This document shows positions 3,813-17,735 of a stretch of DNA of 64,000 bases, in pieces. The stretch lies in IMG/VR virus record IMGVR_UViG_3300036770_008442, positions 1 through 64,000 of that record. One strand, given 5' to 3'. The notes below the pieces were generated by a model. The model saw only the letters and a program-made list of their open reading frames with translations. It had not been told where the DNA came from and did not search any database. Position 1 is the first letter of the stretch; the number at the start of each line of letters is the position of its first letter. The translations under genes and the position numbers were made by a program. Origin of the DNA: a virus.

Positions 3813-5771
3813 TCAAACATCCTTTACAAGATCATTATAGAGAATCGCAACTTCAGGGGGAACCATTTTTTTAAACTTAGAAAAATCCCGATCCGTCAAA
3901 GCTTCTCTTACTTTAGTAGCTGATCCAGATCGTGGGGTTTCAATTAATTTCAGGTCCGGACTAATAATATCCTTAATGTCGGATTGCTTGATGTATTCCA
4001 TTTGCTTCTGGTAATCATCTATCCTATCATCTCCTGCTCCTATTAATTGAGGATCATATCCTGAATCGAGAAGTTTAGCAACAGCAGATCCTAAAAGACC
4101 TCTGGATAACATCATAAATCCCTCGATCTGGGGATGATTCTTGGTGATTTCTCCCATATATCTCTCAACCTTGTCAATGGGAAATGGAGATTTACCGGAT
4201 TTATTATGACCTGGATGAACGACTATAATATAGGAATCAAACCCGTTTTTTTCTTTTAGGAAATCAGCCATTTTTAAATGGCCATAATGAAAGGGCTGAA
4301 ATCTACCCAGGATCACATTGATCTTCTTTCTTTCCTCCTCTGTATCTTCTACAATGGAATCAAATTTAGAAGACTGGGAATCAATAGTTTCTAGGTTTCC
4401 AATAAATTCATCATAAGAAAAGAGAGGATTTTCGTTTTTCTCATCTTCCTCGTCTTCCTCCTTGAGATACTCTACTGGCTTAATAAATTCCTTTTTGAAT
4501 TGATCGAAAGAAATGAGAGATGATTCGTTGATTTCCTTTTTTGGCTTCTCCACATATCTTCGAATCTCCTCGACCAAAGAATTGAATTGCTCCTGCATAC
4601 CCTTGTTGATAATGCCTCCAGCTCGGGTTTTAATTTTCCGAAAAGAATTAAGAATAAGTTTGTAAAGGGATTCAAAGGTCTGATCCTTTTCCAGATACTT
4701 CAGAACTCTCCGATCATTAATGAGATCTTTATTCAGCCTGAATTCTTCTTTCTTTAAGTATTCTGGCTCTTCGTAATCAGCATTTTTATACTTATTCTCA
4801 TATCGATCTAAGAATCGAACAAACACATCAGAAATAAAAGAAATGTATCTCTCATCTTCTGTATCCCCATCAATATCGAAAGATCTTACACCCTCCTCCA
4901 AAATAAAATTCATAACATCCATGAGAGTTATGCCCAAAAAATCACTCGGTTTTTTCTGAGCCTTCTCCTGATATTTGGATTTTGCTATTTCGGTAAAGAT
5001 CGGATCCACCATTTTGGCTAACACGGTTTCTCCCTCCTTATCAGGATCACCGAATCTAAAAACAATTCCTTCCACGTCCTTATCTAGATCTTCATTCAAG
5101 GCAGTTTTAGATAATTCCGGGTTGAGAGTGGAAATTATGAATCTGACAAAACTATTGGTTCTAAATTTCTCTACTAGATCTTTAAATGGAGTTTCTAGAA
5201 ATTCCATCAGTTTTATCTTCTGAGTCGAATCTAGAATGCCCTGAAAAATGATGGGGGGTCTTTCCACACCTAATAAATCCGCCCAGGTGTCAAGAAGATC
5301 TTTGTCCTGGATCGTTTTAATTATTTTTCTTGATTCGTCCAATTGATGGACATAAGAAAGGATAAGATGATTTTTAGGAGTTCTGTCGTAGACTATCTCA
5401 ACAGGCTTGTTATTGGCAAAATATTCAAGTCCGAATCTCCACCCTCTGGGAATTTTCTCAATCACATGGGGAGGCAGGGATTCAATATAGTTAATTGGTT
5501 TTTCATAATATCTCATCAAAGTCCGATCGACGAGAGTTATAGGATTTCTTTGATCTCTTCTATAAAATTTAAACCTTCCGCTTTCCCTGTCTCTTTCAAA
5601 CGTGAAAGCGGATCCATCCATTTTCTCATTGATAGTGACGAACTGATTAAAAAGATCATTAATAAAATTTGCACCCTTTTTATTATAGATATCGTAAAGA
5701 TGATTAATTCCAGACATGTTTGAGATAATATGATTAAGATTCCGCGGAGGATTTGATAAAATGTGGGCCAA
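3813..5771 (-). CDS. Fused KxDG nucleic-acid ligase and NMN-adenylyltransferase-like protein (652 aa)
   Basis: Two enzymes are joined. Residues about 45-260 look like an ATP-dependent RNA/DNA ligase: EKMDGS (KxDG, Lys50 as the likely adenylated residue), GWRFGLEYF (motif III-like), DVEGIVFRF (motif IV-like) and VLAKM (motif V-like). Residues 484-652 look like an NMNAT/cytidylyltransferase fold: GRFQPFHYGH (the HxGH site) near 489-498 and SGSATKVRE (the S-x-T-x-x-R site) near 615. The acidic linker between them carries LISFDQF and LFSYDEFIGNLE, which resemble the capsid-targeting motif of neighbouring proteins. The first could seal RNA or DNA nicks; the second would make NAD from NMN and ATP. 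ATG 5771 overlaps the upstream gene by 38 nt; ATG 5717 is an alternative start. Domain calls are by motif; the exact ligase family is not resolved. Confidence 0.75.
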   Translation of the reverse strand: MAHILSNPPRNLNHIISNMSGINHLYDIYNKKGANFINDLFNQFVTINEKMDGSAFTFERDRESGRFKFYRRDQRNPITLVDRTLMRYYEKPINYIESLPPHVIEKIPRGWRFGLEYFANNKPVEIVYDRTPKNHLILSYVHQLDESRKIIKTIQDKDLLDTWADLLGVERPPIIFQGILDSTQKIKLMEFLETPFKDLVEKFRTNSFVRFIISTLNPELSKTALNEDLDKDVEGIVFRFGDPDKEGETVLAKMVDPIFTEIAKSKYQEKAQKKPSDFLGITLMDVMNFILEEGVRSFDIDGDTEDERYISFISDVFVRFLDRYENKYKNADYEEPEYLKKEEFRLNKDLINDRRVLKYLEKDQTFESLYKLILNSFRKIKTRAGGIINKGMQEQFNSLVEEIRRYVEKPKKEINESSLISFDQFKKEFIKPVEYLKEEDEEDEKNENPLFSYDEFIGNLETIDSQSSKFDSIVEDTEEERKKINVILGRFQPFHYGHLKMADFLKEKNGFDSYIIVVHPGHNKSGKSPFPIDKVERYMGEITKNHPQIEGFMMLSRGLLGSAVAKLLDSGYDPQLIGAGDDRIDDYQKQMEYIKQSDIKDIISPDLKLIETPRSGSATKVREALTDRDFSKFKKMVPPEVAILYNDLVKDV

Positions 5772-11968: not shown

Positions 11969-12718
11969 CTATCTTGAATTTTTCGTCCAATTTAGCTCAT
12001 TTTGTTCCAGGTCTCCAATTCTTTTGTCTCTTAAATACACATCAAGATCTACTCTTTCCACATCGAACTCCGATGTGAATAAATGATATTTCAATAGGGT
12101 CTCGGGATGGAAAAGTATTTTCTTATCGACTATATATGTCTCTATTTTTGAATATAGTGAACAGTAGTAAGACATGGCATCCCTTCCTCCCATGGCAAAA
12201 ATGTCATTAATCCCAGATCTCCAGTCATATCCTTTGGGAATTCTAATGACCATTGGATCCAGATTGAATTCAGGAGACTCCTTAAAAAGTAAATCAAATC
12301 TGGATTTAATAATCCTATCATATCTTATTCCGGTTTCCCTCTCATAATCAGTCAGAAGGGAAAGGGCAGATCCTATTTTATACCACATACAGAATACAGA
12401 GCTAAAACTGATCTCCCCATTCTTGATGGAAAAATCCCCCAGTGAATTTGCCCGGTTGATAATATTTTTTATTTTGGGAGAATTAAAATCCTCCGAAAGA
12501 ATTGATTTTGGTTCGTAGATTGAAATGACATCAGAGATGCTCAGGGTATCCTGAATATCCCGGGTCTGTAATTGAACTGTATCAAAAATAGTTTCAGTGG
12601 GATTCCAACAAGAAATAAAAACATCAGGATGATAAACATCAAGAATATTTTGCTTGAATTGAGGAAAATAATCAGAAGCGTTTCTGAATTGTCCCGAAAT
12701 TAATAGAGCAGTTCTCAT
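11969..12718 (-). CDS. Glycosyltransferase-like protein of capsule-cluster type (249 aa)
   Basis: ATG 12718 is chosen because it overlaps the stop of the GDPD-like gene in ATGA. The protein starts with a strand and loop (TALLISGQFRNASDYF). It has FISCW, an RIIKSRFDLLF segment that carries the Arg-x-Asp-type acidic site of many glycosyltransferases, and IPKGYDWRSGINDIFAMG, typical of hypothetical proteins in capsule and LPS loci. It is the last gene of the sugar module. The likely job is transfer of an activated sugar; donor and acceptor are unknown. Confidence 0.5.
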   Translation of the reverse strand: MRTALLISGQFRNASDYFPQFKQNILDVYHPDVFISCWNPTETIFDTVQLQTRDIQDTLSISDVISIYEPKSILSEDFNSPKIKNIINRANSLGDFSIKNGEISFSSVFCMWYKIGSALSLLTDYERETGIRYDRIIKSRFDLLFKESPEFNLDPMVIRIPKGYDWRSGINDIFAMGGRDAMSYYCSLYSKIETYIVDKKILFHPETLLKYHLFTSEFDVERVDLDVYLRDKRIGDLEQNELNWTKNSR

Positions 12719-13176
12719 AGATATCGGCGGGAATAATCCGTACAAATTGCATAGCACACAGAAACATCATCATTATGTATCTCTGGTAAAACTGCTACAC
12801 TGCCCACGATGGGCTGATTTCCTGGATATGCCCAGATAAAACCAAGAGAGGTCAAGGTAACAGAATCAGACTGGTGCCAAAAATAATTGTATCTACATTT
12901 CCAATGGAAATCACTCTTATCAGAAGCTGATTGGAAAAAACAGAGAGCTTCAAAATTCTTACAATGAATCCAAGTGTTTTTGCATCTATCGGAAAACCAA
13001 GACAGAGAGACTGGGAAATCTGGTTTATCGTGGCCCAAGAAAATTCCGTTTTCTAAGACCCAAACATCGACTTCGACATCAAATCCCCCAGCAAGAGCTG
13101 CATCTATATAATCTGGGTGATTTTCAAGAGATAGATTGGGTCCTTCTAAATTTCCTCGATGTGCAATAATAATCAT
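12715..13176 (-). CDS. Short GDPD-like phosphodiesterase (153 aa)
   Basis: The N-terminus shows the glycerophosphodiester phosphodiesterase signature: IAHRG, then LEN, EVDVW (Glu and Asp metal ligands), LGHD and WIHCKN (the later Lys). The family normally has about 230-250 residues, so this is a compact version. Short GDPD-like proteins occur in capsule loci, where they act on phospho-linked sugar or polyol intermediates. It starts 4 nt after the RuBisCO-like stop and overlaps the glycosyltransferase-like gene by 4 nt. Confidence 0.65.
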   Translation of the reverse strand: MIIIAHRGNLEGPNLSLENHPDYIDAALAGGFDVEVDVWVLENGIFLGHDKPDFPVSLSWFSDRCKNTWIHCKNFEALCFFQSASDKSDFHWKCRYNYFWHQSDSVTLTSLGFIWAYPGNQPIVGSVAVLPEIHNDDVSVCYAICTDYSRRYL

Positions 13177-13180
13177 TCCC

Positions 13181-14416
13181 TTAGAAAATACGATAAGCTA
13201 GATCTTTTGAAAATTTTCGGTCTCCCCATTTTTCAATGGCTGCTTTGTATTCAGGCTTTTCAAATTCCCCATTGATGGCCTGAATCATAGCAATTCCACC
13301 GGATCTTGTTCCCATGGGATGTCCATGCATAGCACCCCCGACGTTAGCCATCCAGTCTGTAGAGTCTATAACCTGATTAATAAACTGAACTAATCCGGGG
13401 TGCATGCCGCAACTAAGAGCAGGAACTATATCAAAAGACCATAAAACCTTTAAGGCATCAATTAATTCTTGGTCTTCCTGGTTCATATAGCCACCTATCA
13501 TTCCTGCATGAATAGAGTCGCAGCCAGACCATCCCGCTATTTTACAGATAACGGGCCAATAGATGTGAAATGGAGCTCTGCGATCAGTAAAGAATTTATC
13601 ACCGCTTTTTTGAAAATGAATCCACAGATCCGGATTTTCTTTTCTAATAGCTCGATAAACACCCAGTCCACTCCATACATTGATGTGAATCCCGTTGCCC
13701 CCGTTTTCTTGAACGAATCGAGCTCTCTCCAAAGCATATGGACTGTCTCCATTGATACAAAAACAATAGATCACATTCGGTGCATGGGAATTAAGCCAGT
13801 TGCTAATGAGAGGAACTCTTACCTCGAGTGGGCAGTGAGCAGGATTGCCCAAAAGCTCGTCTTCCTTGATGAAATTAACCCCTCCTGCCACCATTTCTTT
13901 AACAGCTTCAAGGAGCACATCCGGACTCATCCCAACCTTGGGCTTCACAATTCCACCTAAAAAGGGTTTATCATAAACTCCATTGAAGGATCTAAATCCC
14001 CGGATTCCATAGGCACTCTTTAAGGTAAAAGATCTTTCTACATCAGGGGGAAGTTCAATATCCAAGACGTGACATTTCTGAATTTCCAAAATGTCAACTT
14101 GACCTCCAGCTACATGACAAAGAATTTGGGAGATCCCATCCTCCTCGAGATTCAAATTGCTTAGAGGAAATGCTATCCGAACCTCCCCACTTTTTATTCT
14201 AGCGAGGCCCTCCTCTTCTTCTAGCACTATACATCCGTGATTGAGAAACATTTCTTCAGTTTCCCAAAAGCTTCGGTTATTCGGATTGCCTATGCTCTGG
14301 CCAATTGCTAGATTCCAAGCAGCCTCTCTGAGCGAATTTTTGGCTTCGAGATAATATGTTACCGTGAAATAATCGGATAGATCCAGATCGGATTCATTCC
14401 GAAATATACTAACCAT
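13181..14416 (-). CDS. RuBisCO-like protein (form IV-type), 411 aa
   Basis: The fold signatures of the RuBisCO large subunit are all in order: GQSIGNP in the N-terminal domain, GGIVKPKVG (154-162, equivalents of Lys175 and Lys177), FIKEDE (182-187, with the carbamylated Lys201 and Asp203/Glu204 equivalents at 184, 186 and 187), SIHAG (301-305, His327), SCGMHPG (335-341) and GGAMHGHPMG (360-369). The loop-6 lysine (Lys334), needed for CO2 fixation, is replaced: HAGMIGGY ends in Tyr310. His294 and Arg295 also appear changed, to Gln and Lys. It is therefore a RuBisCO-like protein, expected to do enolase, isomerase, aldolase or decarboxylase chemistry on a sugar or polyol phosphate. Known relatives act in methionine salvage and D-apionate breakdown. 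Here it sits between a cupin and a GDPD-like gene in a glycan module. Confidence 0.9.
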   Translation of the reverse strand: MVSIFRNESDLDLSDYFTVTYYLEAKNSLREAAWNLAIGQSIGNPNNRSFWETEEMFLNHGCIVLEEEEGLARIKSGEVRIAFPLSNLNLEEDGISQILCHVAGGQVDILEIQKCHVLDIELPPDVERSFTLKSAYGIRGFRSFNGVYDKPFLGGIVKPKVGMSPDVLLEAVKEMVAGGVNFIKEDELLGNPAHCPLEVRVPLISNWLNSHAPNVIYCFCINGDSPYALERARFVQENGGNGIHINVWSGLGVYRAIRKENPDLWIHFQKSGDKFFTDRRAPFHIYWPVICKIAGWSGCDSIHAGMIGGYMNQEDQELIDALKVLWSFDIVPALSCGMHPGLVQFINQVIDSTDWMANVGGAMHGHPMGTRSGGIAMIQAINGEFEKPEYKAAIEKWGDRKFSKDLAYRIF

Positions 14417-14427
14417 TTTTTATTAAA

Positions 14428-14748
14428 TTAAATTGCGTATTTATCCCCGGGTTTAGATGGTGTCTTAACGATCAGAACTTCACAGTTTTCAATAAAAATC
14501 GGATCTGCAACTTCATATTTTTTAATGACAAATATATCACCTTTTACCAATTCTTTTCCTTGTATGATCATTCTTCCCCTGATCAATAAATTGATCTCGT
14601 CGCTTTCCCGATGGTAATGTACTGGCCATTTTTCTCCGGCTATATGGGTCTTAAAGCAGACTTCAAAATCACCGGTCTGATAGGCAGAAGGATCGAAATT
14701 TCCGATAAACCATCCTCCTTTATAGCTCTCGATTCTTGTAACTTCCAT
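14428..14748 (-). CDS. Cupin-fold protein (106 aa)
   Basis: A single cupin domain: WPVHYHRESDEINLLIRG gives the HxH...E metal motif (His44, His46, Glu51), followed by GDIFVIKKY as the second motif, in which the usual His is missing. Small cupins next to sugar enzymes are often isomerases or epimerases. Its stop lies 11 nt before the RuBisCO-like ATG, so the two are co-transcribed and may act on successive intermediates, which is inference. Confidence 0.7.
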   Translation of the reverse strand: MEVTRIESYKGGWFIGNFDPSAYQTGDFEVCFKTHIAGEKWPVHYHRESDEINLLIRGRMIIQGKELVKGDIFVIKKYEVADPIFIENCEVLIVKTPSKPGDKYAI

Positions 14749-14778
14749 TTTCTGTTTTTGAATTTAGTTATTCATTGA

Positions 14779-15270
14779 TTATTTACCGATCGGAATTATT
14801 AGACTGGCTGAGACTTCTCCTGTGCTCGGGACATAACTCGCCGCTAAATTACCTAATGATACCCCAAATGCTCCGGGTTCATAAGATACCCCGACATCTG
14901 TATTAGGTATATAATATGTGAAACCTCCCGCTACCATACCTTCACCTGACTCATCATCCCGATACTGGTAAAAAAAAGGTTCAAAACCTTTATCTATTAA
15001 TCCCTGCGATAATCGGGAAACAAAATCCGGTTTAGCCGGGTCTAAATTTAGACCGACAATTTTTTTAGCCAATTCTGTATTTTGTCGGATCTGATCCAAG
15101 AGGGATTTGTTATTTTTAATTATTGAGGGAGTAAGTTTCGGTATTTTTAAGATTGAAGCTGAAACCGGTTTGGTTTTTTTACCCTTATCTAAAATATCCC
15201 TGCTGGATTTTTCTTGTAAAATTTTTGAAAGTTGTTTCATCCTACTGTTTTTTAATTCACCGTCACTCAA
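14779..15270 (-). CDS. Unknown protein (163 aa) in the sugar module
   Basis: No family is recognised. The N-terminal half is basic and helical; the C-terminal half has Gly-rich beta segments (GMVAGGFTYYIP, GAFGVSLGNLAASYVP). It lies between the 310-residue unknown protein and the cupin. The beta-rich C-terminus could be structural rather than enzymatic. Confidence 0.5.
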   Translation of the reverse strand: MSDGELKNSRMKQLSKILQEKSSRDILDKGKKTKPVSASILKIPKLTPSIIKNNKSLLDQIRQNTELAKKIVGLNLDPAKPDFVSRLSQGLIDKGFEPFFYQYRDDESGEGMVAGGFTYYIPNTDVGVSYEPGAFGVSLGNLAASYVPSTGEVSASLIIPIGK

Positions 15271-15292
15271 TATTTATTCCCGTAATAATAGA

Positions 15293-16225
15293 TTAGTGAC
15301 TAAATGTATGTGAAGTTTTTTTAATGTTGGGCATATTATTAAATACAAACTCTCTTGGAAATAATCCTCCCCCGAATGGTGCGTTTGGATTGGGAACTCC
15401 GTTGTACAGATCATTAAATAAATAGTTACAAGCGTCGTCACTTAAATTGCCGTATGATCCAATCGACCATCCTGTTCCTATACTATAGTTTGTAATGTAC
15501 CATACCCCGTGATCTTTTTTTCCTCCGAAGATTCCAATATCCTGATACCATTGCCAGTATTGCCAATATGCCGGGTTTTCTATATACCATCCACTTGCAT
15601 TGGAAATAAAGGAATTTTCGTTACACTCAGAAATCCTATCATCACATTGATTACTTGGATACCATGCTGTAATTTCAAAATTAGGTAAAAGAGTATTCCA
15701 TACTTGTTGATCAAGACCAAAAACCGCTTGAAGCATAATGTCAGTATAACCTGTATCAGTTTTGGCGGGTACATCTACCGTTGATAAATCAGATAGTTTT
15801 CCCGAAACTGTGTAAGTTCCGAATGCGGTATTGACTTGTCCTTCATAAACTGTATCCCAATATGTGGTTGGATCATCATAGAATGTTTGTAAATCAAACT
15901 GAAATTGATTGGAGGTATTTTGGAATCTTTCTATAAGACGGCTTGTCGCACTTAAAAGACTCGGTGGTGTATTGGTTGAATATCTTGAAACAACCCCACA
16001 ACAAAAATTGGCGGCGATTTGAGTAACCCCGTCGGATGCTGCCCAAAATGATCCGTCTAAAATATTGATTCCGATTTGGACTCCTAAATCTTTATTGTCT
16101 TGGATGGATAAAAGAGCAAATGCGTTTTCTATTTTGAGATTACCATTCACAAGAATGTCAGAATTTAAGTCCATAAGGTTTCTTAAATTTAATTTTACTT
16201 TGTCGATTTGATCTTGTGGAATCAT
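15293..16225 (-). CDS. Unknown Trp/Tyr-rich protein (310 aa) in the sugar module
   Basis: No family is recognised. The second half is rich in Trp, Tyr and Asn (PAYWQYWQWYQDIGIFGG), a composition seen in carbohydrate-binding and fibre proteins. Several Cys residues occur (CDDRISECNENS). Its ATG overlaps the nucleotidyltransferase stop by 4 nt, so it is tightly coupled to the sugar module. It could be the carrier or acceptor of the sugar, or a structural protein; neither is shown. Confidence 0.55.
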   Translation of the reverse strand: MIPQDQIDKVKLNLRNLMDLNSDILVNGNLKIENAFALLSIQDNKDLGVQIGINILDGSFWAASDGVTQIAANFCCGVVSRYSTNTPPSLLSATSRLIERFQNTSNQFQFDLQTFYDDPTTYWDTVYEGQVNTAFGTYTVSGKLSDLSTVDVPAKTDTGYTDIMLQAVFGLDQQVWNTLLPNFEITAWYPSNQCDDRISECNENSFISNASGWYIENPAYWQYWQWYQDIGIFGGKKDHGVWYITNYSIGTGWSIGSYGNLSDDACNYLFNDLYNGVPNPNAPFGGGLFPREFVFNNMPNIKKTSHTFSH

Positions 16226-16971
16226 AGTATGGTATTTTTTTGAATTATCGATTGATATCTTTTGAGGTCTTCTGGAATTCCAATCGGAAAATGCATATTA
16301 AAGAAATAGGGTAATATTTTTTTTCCCTCTTGAATCAAGTAGTTATAGGTTGGAGCAACATAAAATTCCCCATTGCAACGATCGTTGCATTGAATCATTT
16401 GTTCGGCAGATCTAACAAAATCAGAGCCGGATTTCCAATAATGGAGACCGTTGGTTGCTAAATTAGAGATAACCTTTTTCTCCGCTGTCTGAACGACCTC
16501 TCCATCCCGATTGAGTTTGATGTAACTGTTTTTGGGTGACTCCGAGACAAAGCATCCCAAAGCTCCATCGCAATCATGAATCTGTACAAAATCCGAGAAA
16601 AATTGGAAATCAAAGTCCCGAATAATCTGATCACAATTCACAACCAAAAGAGGATTCTGAGAATCGATCTCTTGTTTTGCGAGAAGACATGTCGAAGCCG
16701 GGCCCTCTGTTAAAATAGGTGTGGTTATAATTTGAAACTCAATCCCAGTTTTAGAAACATGCTTAATAAAGTCCAATGGAGGTAGGATCCCCTCCCGAAC
16801 GACAAATAAAAAACGAGAATTTGGGATCTTTAAATTCTTAATAACCGATGTGATCATCGATTCCCCGTCCACGTTAATGAAAGGTTTGGGATCTAAATAT
16901 CCCGCATCAGAGAATCTCTTTCCCAATCCCGCCAAGGGAATTAGTACATTAATTTTTTGGTTCGATCTCAT
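16222..16971 (-). CDS. Sugar-phosphate nucleotidyltransferase-like protein (249 aa)
   Basis: The N-terminus carries the NTP-transferase signature LIPLAGLGKRF with the catalytic lysine in PKPFINVDG. VVNCDQII gives the metal-binding Asp and AEKKVISNLATNGLHYW the later sugar-pocket segment. Such enzymes join a sugar or polyol phosphate to a nucleotide, making the activated donor for a glycosyltransferase. The version ending NCDQ is common in capsule loci. It overlaps the RuvC-like gene by 23 nt at its start and the 310-residue gene by 4 nt at its end. Confidence 0.75.
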   Translation of the reverse strand: MRSNQKINVLIPLAGLGKRFSDAGYLDPKPFINVDGESMITSVIKNLKIPNSRFLFVVREGILPPLDFIKHVSKTGIEFQIITTPILTEGPASTCLLAKQEIDSQNPLLVVNCDQIIRDFDFQFFSDFVQIHDCDGALGCFVSESPKNSYIKLNRDGEVVQTAEKKVISNLATNGLHYWKSGSDFVRSAEQMIQCNDRCNGEFYVAPTYNYLIQEGKKILPYFFNMHFPIGIPEDLKRYQSIIQKNTIL

Positions 16972-17620
16972 GACCTAAAAACAAACAGATCCAGGTTGCG
17001 TCAATAATATCATCAATCGGTTTATTGATATTTCTCTTAGGGGTAATCCAAGAATCCTGGTGATCCTTGAGTGCATTAGTGAATGTGTGAAGATTAGTTT
17101 CGGGTAATTGCATTTCCATTATCCTATGATAAAGCTCATCTTTCTTAGCGTTACCTTTGAGAGCAAATTTTTTAACAGAGGTTGGGGAAAACACATAGAA
17201 TCTTTCTGGTCCTGAAAAATCCATAATTTTTTTCCGGAGTAAAGCGGTGGCCATGGAGATATCAATCAGGGCATTGCCATTGGAAGCAAAACTAAGACCC
17301 TCGATAGCTACATAAACTTCATCTCCAGGCAAACAATGTTTTTCAATAGAGGACCAGAAATGATCTACAAGCTCCATAAAATAAACGATCTTAATTCTTT
17401 CTTTCTCTGAATACTCCTCGGGAATACTCTTTTTTTCCAGGAAAGACAAGAAAAATTCCTTCATACCATCGAGAACGAAAAAGGGTTTATCCTTGGATTT
17501 TTTGAGAGAATTTTCATTTCGATCTGACCGGGTGAGAGATCCCCAAATAAAATTATTCTCTCTTCTGATACAAAAAGCAGGGGAATTGAGGGAAAAATCG
17601 ATCCCAATTAAAACTTTCAC
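16949..17620 (-). CDS. RuvC-like Holliday-junction resolvase (223 aa)
   Basis: GTG 17620 starts the frame. The RNase-H-fold acidic set is visible: GIDFSLNSPAF (Asp8), YVAIEGLSFAS (Glu107) and PIDDIIDATW (Asp204/Asp207). Lys-rich KKFALKGNAKKDEL gives the conserved basic stretch of RuvC-like nucleases. It would cut branched DNA for packaging, a job done in T4 by gp49 endonuclease VII. A GATATATA element and a terminator of the upstream gene lie just above the start. Confidence 0.75.
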   Translation of the reverse strand: MKVLIGIDFSLNSPAFCIRRENNFIWGSLTRSDRNENSLKKSKDKPFFVLDGMKEFFLSFLEKKSIPEEYSEKERIKIVYFMELVDHFWSSIEKHCLPGDEVYVAIEGLSFASNGNALIDISMATALLRKKIMDFSGPERFYVFSPTSVKKFALKGNAKKDELYHRIMEMQLPETNLHTFTNALKDHQDSWITPKRNINKPIDDIIDATWICLFLGHEIEPKN

Positions 17621-17655: not shown

Positions 17656-17687
17656 CACAAAAAAAGACCCCGGAAAATTCCGGGGTC
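17656..17687 (-). terminator. Rho-independent terminator
   Basis: The hairpin GACCCCGG-AAAATT-CCGGGGTC is followed on the minus strand by TTTTTTT. It ends the short transcript of the 81-residue gene at 17736-17981. Confidence 0.88.
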
Positions 17688-17735
17688 TTAAGACAATAAA
17701 ATAATAAGACAAAAAACACAAGAACCAAGAATAAA

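Follow-up and report, generated by a model that had tools for sequence, protein, structure and literature searches.

Form IV RuBisCO-like proteins (RLPs), such as MtnW, OiaX and those encoded beside four-carbon acid sugar kinases, have the RuBisCO fold, a metal site made of a carbamate-bearing Lys, an Asp and a Glu, and no small subunit. To our knowledge, all the characterized ones function in salvage or catabolism. Characterized enzymes of the RuBisCO superfamily act on substrates with a carbonyl next to a CH2-O-phosphate, from which they form an enediolate. Here we describe an RLP that shares the fold, the metal-site residues and the lack of a small subunit with form IV and is encoded by a virus, in a stretch of 64,000 nucleotides (the window hereafter) comprising bases 1-64000 of the 128,254-base IMG/VR record IMGVR_UViG_3300036770_008442. 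Its gene belongs to a run of seven closely spaced minus-strand open reading frames (ORFs), at 11969-16971, which a sequence-only reading of the window had picked out as one packed series and which we confirmed. From the upstream end, they encode a sugar nucleotidyltransferase (NTP), two proteins called unk310 and unk163, a small cupin, the RLP, a short GDPD-like phosphodiesterase and a glycosyltransferase-like (GT-like) protein. Unlike described form IV RLPs, this one belongs to a separate, mostly viral clade (on a stem of 0.85 substitutions per site), has a unique pocket (HxQKSGD, Y310, SCG) and has glycan-biosynthesis genes rather than catabolic ones as neighbours.

Other parts of the cassette have counterparts in described systems. 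Large lipopolysaccharide (LPS)-type clusters are known from cyanophages (S-SM2, P-SSM2, S-SSM7); their function is open, and in 2010 it was suggested that they could be 'stuffer DNA' (PMC3037559). These clusters, and those of Bellamy, SynMITS9220M01, S-CAM9 and B23 examined here, have an NTP and a GDPD-like gene in common with the cassette, and the glycan islands of Bellamy and SynMITS9220M01 a cupin as well, but they contain no RLP; the NTP of SynMITS9220M01 has an RpiB isomerase domain instead. In the Pelagibacterales, for which a description of O-antigen or O-chain clusters does not mention RuBisCO (PMC11898729), the cassette is rare, and its copy in SAG-MED47 lies among O-chain-type genes. 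Finally, the HddC/WcbM pathways of heptose-1-phosphate activation follow a like logic, a ketose phosphate going through an isomerase (then a kinase and a HAD phosphatase) to an NTP, and the NTP of the window is weakly similar to WcbM. The window's module differs from them: it showed no homologue of GmhA or HldE, and the RLP and the cupin would occupy the early steps. A search of the open-access literature, which takes in only a minority of subscription journals and preprints, turned up nothing on phage RLPs or the NTP-cupin-RLP set; the sequence-only reading, too, knew of no described phage pathway with this set of genes.

Conservation of the cassette in phages and cells

A profile-guided scan of IMG/VR found at least 243 stretches that encode the RLP, against 88 when the window protein was the sole query; the carriers are hundreds of large phages, mostly from water samples, and there was no match among the 50,697 annotated phage records of INPHARED. 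To remove near-copies, the RLPs were clustered at 75% identity into 23 groups, and any gene within four genes of the RLP was counted as a neighbour. The NTP is present in 22 of these groups, the cupin in 20, the GDPD-like protein in 19 and the GT-like protein in 11. The cupin gene lies directly upstream of the RLP gene in 17 groups and, since the order NTP-cupin-RLP is contiguous in 16, the cassette is more than a chance assemblage. Linkage of the NTP, cupin, RLP and GDPD-like genes is thus conserved across diverse phages and a few cells, where glycan genes mostly surround them; the GT-like gene is a member too, more loosely. The search for the same gene order in other large phages, which had been advised, returned the set together in many divergent ones. 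The cassette has a fixed position between RuvC-like and gp32 genes in the lineage of the window, to which 17 loci belong (the window counted). Outside this lineage it is mostly part of a larger glycan island that also encodes CapD-, WecB- and DegT-like enzymes, methyltransferases and glycosyltransferases, several of these names having been read from the sequence with no profile behind them. In one freshwater phage group (L026-L034), NTP-cupin-RLP comes directly after a gene for a transaldolase or fructose-6-phosphate aldolase-like protein (PF00923, below cut-off), which may hint at the precursor of the sugar.

Two of the seven genes do not take part in this conservation. The 310-residue unk310 (15293-16225, minus strand) has no match in Pfam, PHROG, NCBIfam or INPHARED, the 163-residue unk163 (14779-15270, minus strand) matches no family and nothing in INPHARED, and neither was found in any other of about 81 loci. 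We rejected both as pathway enzymes, for they are private to the window genome and have no family or phage match; because they are confined to that genome among the loci examined, they would represent an insertion into the cassette, outside the conserved module. The proposal that the genes form one pathway thus holds in so far as the NTP, cupin, RLP and GDPD-like genes (and loosely the GT-like gene) are linked, and fails for unk310 and unk163.

In cells the cassette is rare. The RLP was detected in 4 of 84,980 prokaryote species genomes, and one more copy came from a search of 397 Pelagibacterales genomes, two of which are carriers; in total, three Pelagibacterales genomes have the cassette. 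The cellular carriers are SAR11 or other alphaproteobacteria and one Patescibacteria metagenome-assembled genome (MAG); no copy was seen in the capsule loci of Bacteroidota, where a search had been advised. With gene names read from the sequences, the SAR11 single amplified genome (SAG) SAG-MED47 has GDPD-NTP-RLP beside a GDP-mannose dehydratase (Gmd), a flippase and a GME-like epimerase, on a 232-kb contig where the transhydrogenase and EF-P genes are close by; an alphaproteobacterial SAG has NTP-cupin-RLP-GDPD-RmlB-RmlA-DegT; the Patescibacteria MAG has an NTP and GDPD-cupin-RLP amid glycosyltransferases; a Pelagibacteraceae SAG contig has NTP-RLP-GDPD-epimerase-GT; and the fifth copy, in the Pelagibacterales genome G238, reads GDPD-NTP-like-RLP-NTP beside lepA and pheST. 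Judged by these names, at least three copies lie inside surface-glycan or polysaccharide gene clusters. Since long contigs with housekeeping genes are chromosomal, the cassette, though rare in cells, is not purely viral. That divergent phages in large numbers, as well as a few surface-glycan clusters of cells, contain the same set argues that its genes are functionally linked. The NTP-like protein of G238 that stands between the RLP and the GDPD-like gene (L182:8852-9592) is a second, apparently degenerate one, in the earliest-branching cellular cassette. Patescibacteria were also considered as a reservoir, and rejected: 28 of 380 genomes matched the RLP alignment but, save for G002, with 218 bits at most, and the six matches that were checked are ordinary form III or II/III RuBisCOs with HRAMH or HRAGH motifs.

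The RuBisCO-like protein and its partners

The RLP (13181-14416, minus strand) matches PF00016 with an E-value of 2e-30, exceeding the Pfam cut-off, and a fold search with its AlphaFold model (mean pLDDT 89, pTM 0.88) led to a type III RuBisCO (TM 0.83, 26% identity). It was aligned with divergent members of its clade (25 sequences in all), and a residue table compared 81 phage and 5 cellular sequences with OiaX, MtnW, other RLPs and RuBisCOs. Throughout these 86 sequences, K158, K160, K184, D186, E187 and H303 are kept; they correspond to RuBisCO K175, K177, K201, D203, E204 and H327, so that both lysines of the KPK motif (Lys175 and Lys177) and the carbamate/Mg site (Lys201/Asp203/Glu204) are invariant. 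The SCG and GG phosphate-loop motifs are still present. Elsewhere the RuBisCO residues are replaced: H294, R295 and the loop-6 K334 by Q269, K270 and Y310, which are likewise invariant in the 81 phage and 5 cellular proteins, H298 by D273 (the clade motif being HxQKSGD), and E60, T65, W66 and N123 by G39, N44, P45 and G105. Because the carbamate/Mg and KPK residues are kept while the positions of H294, R295, H298 and K334 are replaced, the protein apparently has an active metal site and a different substrate pocket.

The RLP is a form IV protein in the broad sense of the term, having the RuBisCO fold and homology without the full active site. As far as its sequence tells, it is not a carboxylase, nor any known type of RLP. 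Its scores are far from every NCBIfam equivalog cut-off: 84.5 versus 513.6 (TIGR03332) and 115.2 versus 409 (NF007095) for MtnW, 109.1 versus 700 bits for OiaX (NF042437), and 142 versus 497 bits for form III RuBisCO. In an IQ-TREE phylogeny, 33 representative phage and cellular sequences formed a single clade (bootstrap 100, stem of 0.85 substitutions per site) among the RLPs, next to form III. The grouping with RLPs had a bootstrap of 100 and the place beside MtnW one of 98, with long branches; a FastTree of all 86 proteins was concordant (support 0.946). The clade, mostly viral, is a previously undescribed one.

Among the partners, the NTP (16222-16971, minus strand; RmlA/HddC-like fold family) passes the cut-off of PF00483 (29.9 bits versus 21.2) and matches phrog_3980 (1e-57). 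Its residues G15, G17, R19, K29, D114, E164 and K165, which cover the GxGxR...KP and Asp motifs, are invariant among 78 relatives; the closest PDB entry is 4evw, with weaker likeness to heptose (WcbM) and other sugar-1-phosphate enzymes. For the cupin, the GDPD-like and the GT-like proteins, the names come from motifs and distant profiles: in the window none of the three is above a Pfam cut-off, and all match PHROG families without assigned function. The cupin (14428-14748, minus strand; phrog_24762, 8e-27) scores 13.4 bits against Cupin_7, below the cut-off of 27, and its H44, H46 and E51, the metal-binding HxH(x)4E motif, are invariant in the alignment. The GDPD-like protein (12715-13176, minus strand; 153 residues; phrog_34507, 1e-26) has no Pfam family at E <= 0.1, but seven of its residues, H6, R7, E35, D37, H49, H71 and K73, are invariant among 31-34 relatives. 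We take H6 and H49 to be the two catalytic His of GDPD enzymes, E35 and D37 to be metal ligands, and H71-x-K73 to occupy the position of the third ligand (E-x-K). Its model (pLDDT 95) gave no significant PDB match with Foldseek (GlpQ, TMq 0.50, E 0.84) and looks like a very small GDPD barrel, in itself unusual. The GDPD-like proteins of the window and its relatives are 140-150 residues long, and in L060 the protein is fused to the GT-like one. The GT-like protein (11969-12718, minus strand; phrog_13607, 1.5e-16; R153-x-D155 motif), a suspected LPS-type glycosyltransferase, presumably resembles WavE, an LPS glycosyltransferase; it scores 17.2 against DUF7796, whose cut-off is 27, whereas the relative in cyanophage SynMITS9220M01 (L082) reaches 30.2. 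The sequence-only reading had named two observations that would defeat the pathway idea, genes never found together in relatives and proteins without their catalytic residues. Neither was made: the set recurs, and the catalytic residues that can be checked are conserved in the RLP, NTP, cupin and GDPD-like proteins.

Reaction, destination and rival explanations

Some clues to the reaction come from cassettes that have the cupin and no RLP. In the Synechococcus phage SynMITS9220M01, which has cupin and GDPD-like genes, the protein that contains the NTP also has an RpiB/LacAB sugar-phosphate isomerase domain (PF02502, 4e-33); this fused gene (L082:5838-6995) is annotated merely as 'phosphatase', and the cupin gene directly after it (L082:7001-7303) is mostly unannotated. 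An uncultured contig, L214, has by eye the same NTP-RpiB architecture, with cupin and GDPD-like genes and without RLP. In most other such cassettes, the NTP carries a C-terminal HAD phosphatase domain (by eye, with profile support in L051). Over 49 groups with a cupin, an extra C-terminal domain on the NTP was seen in 6 of the 7 that lack an RLP and in 1 of the 42 that have one (Fisher p 3e-6). Since the longer NTPs are concentrated in groups without RLP, the latter would alternate with other sugar-phosphate enzymes feeding the same NTP, an analysis which favours an isomerase- or epimerase-like RLP step ahead of activation.

The pathway that may be drawn from this starts from a ketose phosphate supplied by the host, with the general structure R-CO-CH2-O-phosphate. 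The RLP would form an enediolate from it at its Mg-carbamate centre and re-protonate it elsewhere, as an isomerase or epimerase, although a decarboxylase is possible; the cupin would carry out a neighbouring isomerization or epimerization; the NTP would activate the resulting product; the GT-like protein would transfer the activated sugar, and the GDPD-like enzyme would cleave or remodel a phosphodiester. A role of the cassette in glycan or sugar-nucleotide metabolism is, from the sequences, very likely. That it is a sugar-nucleotide biosynthesis unit for glycan modification, with the RLP performing an enolization-type step, is rather likely, and isomerase or epimerase rather than decarboxylase, for the RLP, is an evenly balanced choice. 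Several points weigh against the scheme. The alternating domain is in most cases a HAD phosphatase, RpiB having been seen just twice, and so does not establish 'same reaction, different enzyme'. A kinase or mutase that would make a sugar-1-phosphate is missing from the minimal module, three cellular cassettes (L085, L087 and L182) lack the cupin, and the GDPD-like and GT-like assignments are at the level of motifs. All in all, the core idea of the sequence-only reading, a sugar module built around an RLP, is right once the two private genes are removed, and the module probably encodes a biosynthetic glycan pathway.

As to where the sugar goes, the reading had left a choice between the host surface and the phage's fibres. 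The presence of cellular copies in polysaccharide clusters, and of glycan islands in phages, favours the host surface; modification of the surface of the infected cell may be the case or not with about equal chances, and modification of the virion is possible, if somewhat doubtful. A specific version of the latter, in which the sugar is put onto the phage's own collagen-like, Ser/Thr-rich tail fibres and not onto the host surface, has some evidence of its own. The same phage record encodes a TibC/Aah-type autotransporter O-heptosyltransferase (TIGR04414, 247.6 versus a cut-off of 200; PDB TibC 4rap, 7e-52), outside the window, together with GT4- and GT2-like genes. About 6.6 kb from the TibC gene, a gene for a collagen-like, Ser-rich fibre with GSSGSSG repeats runs off the end of the record, and the whole (G000:C1:119201-128252; L265:15201-20000 and L266) is a candidate fibre O-glycosylation set. 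In 10 of 81 loci the RLP cassette has a collagen-like gene no more than 10 kb away; among them is L032, a close relative, in which such a gene (L032:5434-6852, Thr/Ser-rich) is flanked by d81 and by the RuvC-like gene which precedes the cassette. However, collagen-like fibres are common in phages, so that 10 of 81 loci is not established as an enrichment over chance; TibC matches above cut-off occur in just 2 of 41 RLP-bearing records, many of which are fragments; and the cellular copies have polysaccharide clusters, and not fibre genes, around them. We consider this destination unlikely. TibC was rejected as a constant partner of the RLP on the same count. With the collagen-like gene of L032, the insertion of extra genes close to the cassette is seen for a second time.

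The other explanations bear on the nature of the RLP or of the cassette as a whole. The RLP could be a salvage or catabolic enzyme (an MtnW-like enolase, a 5-methylthioribulose-1-phosphate isomerase or an OiaX-like decarboxylase) acting as an auxiliary metabolic gene, its glycan neighbours being incidental; this would agree with the roles that we know of for characterized RLPs and with the place of the clade, on long branches, beside MtnW. But the protein is far under the MtnW and OiaX cut-offs and differs in its pocket residues, the genes around it, in about 80 loci, are for glycans and not for methionine salvage, kinases or dehydrogenases, and it is the plasmid-borne RLP relatives that adjoin four-carbon acid sugar kinases and transporters, all of which makes the explanation quite improbable. 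A genuine CO2-fixing RuBisCO supplied by the phage would account for the conserved equivalents of K175, K177, K201, D203 and E204, yet K334 has become an invariant Tyr, H294 a Gln and R295 a Lys, the equivalents of E60, T65, W66 and N123 are altered, the form III score is 142 bits where 497 are needed, and no phosphoribulokinase was noticed among the neighbours; we give it next to no credence. The stuffer proposal once made for cyanophage LPS clusters (PMC3037559) would make the cassette passively carried DNA, and the content of large phage glycan islands does vary greatly. Against this, the gene order is conserved, active sites are invariant across about 50% sequence divergence, the position between RuvC-like and gp32 genes is fixed in 17 loci, no frameshifts or stops in the RLP gene were noticed among the loci read, and the measurable pairs of module genes in the window's lineage (1-10 per gene, few pairs being unsaturated, and a single pair for the RLP) have median dN/dS values of 0.06-0.23. 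Passive carriage is therefore exceedingly improbable, and the glycan-biosynthesis reading is the one we retain.

Genome setting and significance

On one side of the module is a RuvC-like gene (16949-17620) and on the other are gp32 and primase genes, with a UvsW-like helicase gene further out; by these genes the virus is a T4-like phage. A Bacteroidota host is plausible, because the best INPHARED matches of a large window protein without assigned function are in Flavobacterium, Prevotella (Lak) and Tenacibaculum phages. The stop of the NTP gene and the start of unk310 overlap by 4 nucleotides (16222-16225), and gaps of 11 and 4 nucleotides separate the cupin from the RLP gene and the RLP from the GDPD-like gene. 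The GT-like gene probably starts at ATG 12718 rather than at GTG 12757, since its relatives begin there, giving a 4-nucleotide overlap with the GDPD-like stop. A hairpin resembling an intrinsic terminator (17664-17689, minus strand; 11-pair stem with 7 GC, then a T run) lies immediately upstream of the RuvC-like gene and is the strongest one found, about six such sites being expected by chance in the region. Given its place, it could be the upstream boundary of a single transcription unit from RuvC through NTP to GT. The T4-type late promoter motif TATAAATA does not occur near the module and its counts in the window are those of chance, while sigma-70-like sites are fewer than in shuffled sequence. 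No second copy of the module genes was found in the other half of the phage record. Away from the module, an unusual fusion is encoded at 3813-5771 of the window (minus strand): a CTP_transf_like domain (PF01467, above cut-off) is combined with a weak match to RNA_ligase in a protein of 652 residues.

The broader proposal is that this mainly viral RLP clade is biosynthetic and does not serve salvage, making a novel activated sugar or polyol with which phages and a few ocean bacteria would decorate surfaces or virions; we hold it to be as probable as its contrary. If true, it would give the RuBisCO superfamily a function beyond carbon fixation, methionine salvage and sugar-acid catabolism, of which phages would be the main carriers, with at least 243 viral stretches to five prokaryote genomes. 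In 2007, RuBisCO homologues on new branches that belong to no known form were reported from ocean metagenomes (PMC1821046), and the phage clade could help to explain them. It would also give a concrete, testable way of finding out what phage glycan islands do.

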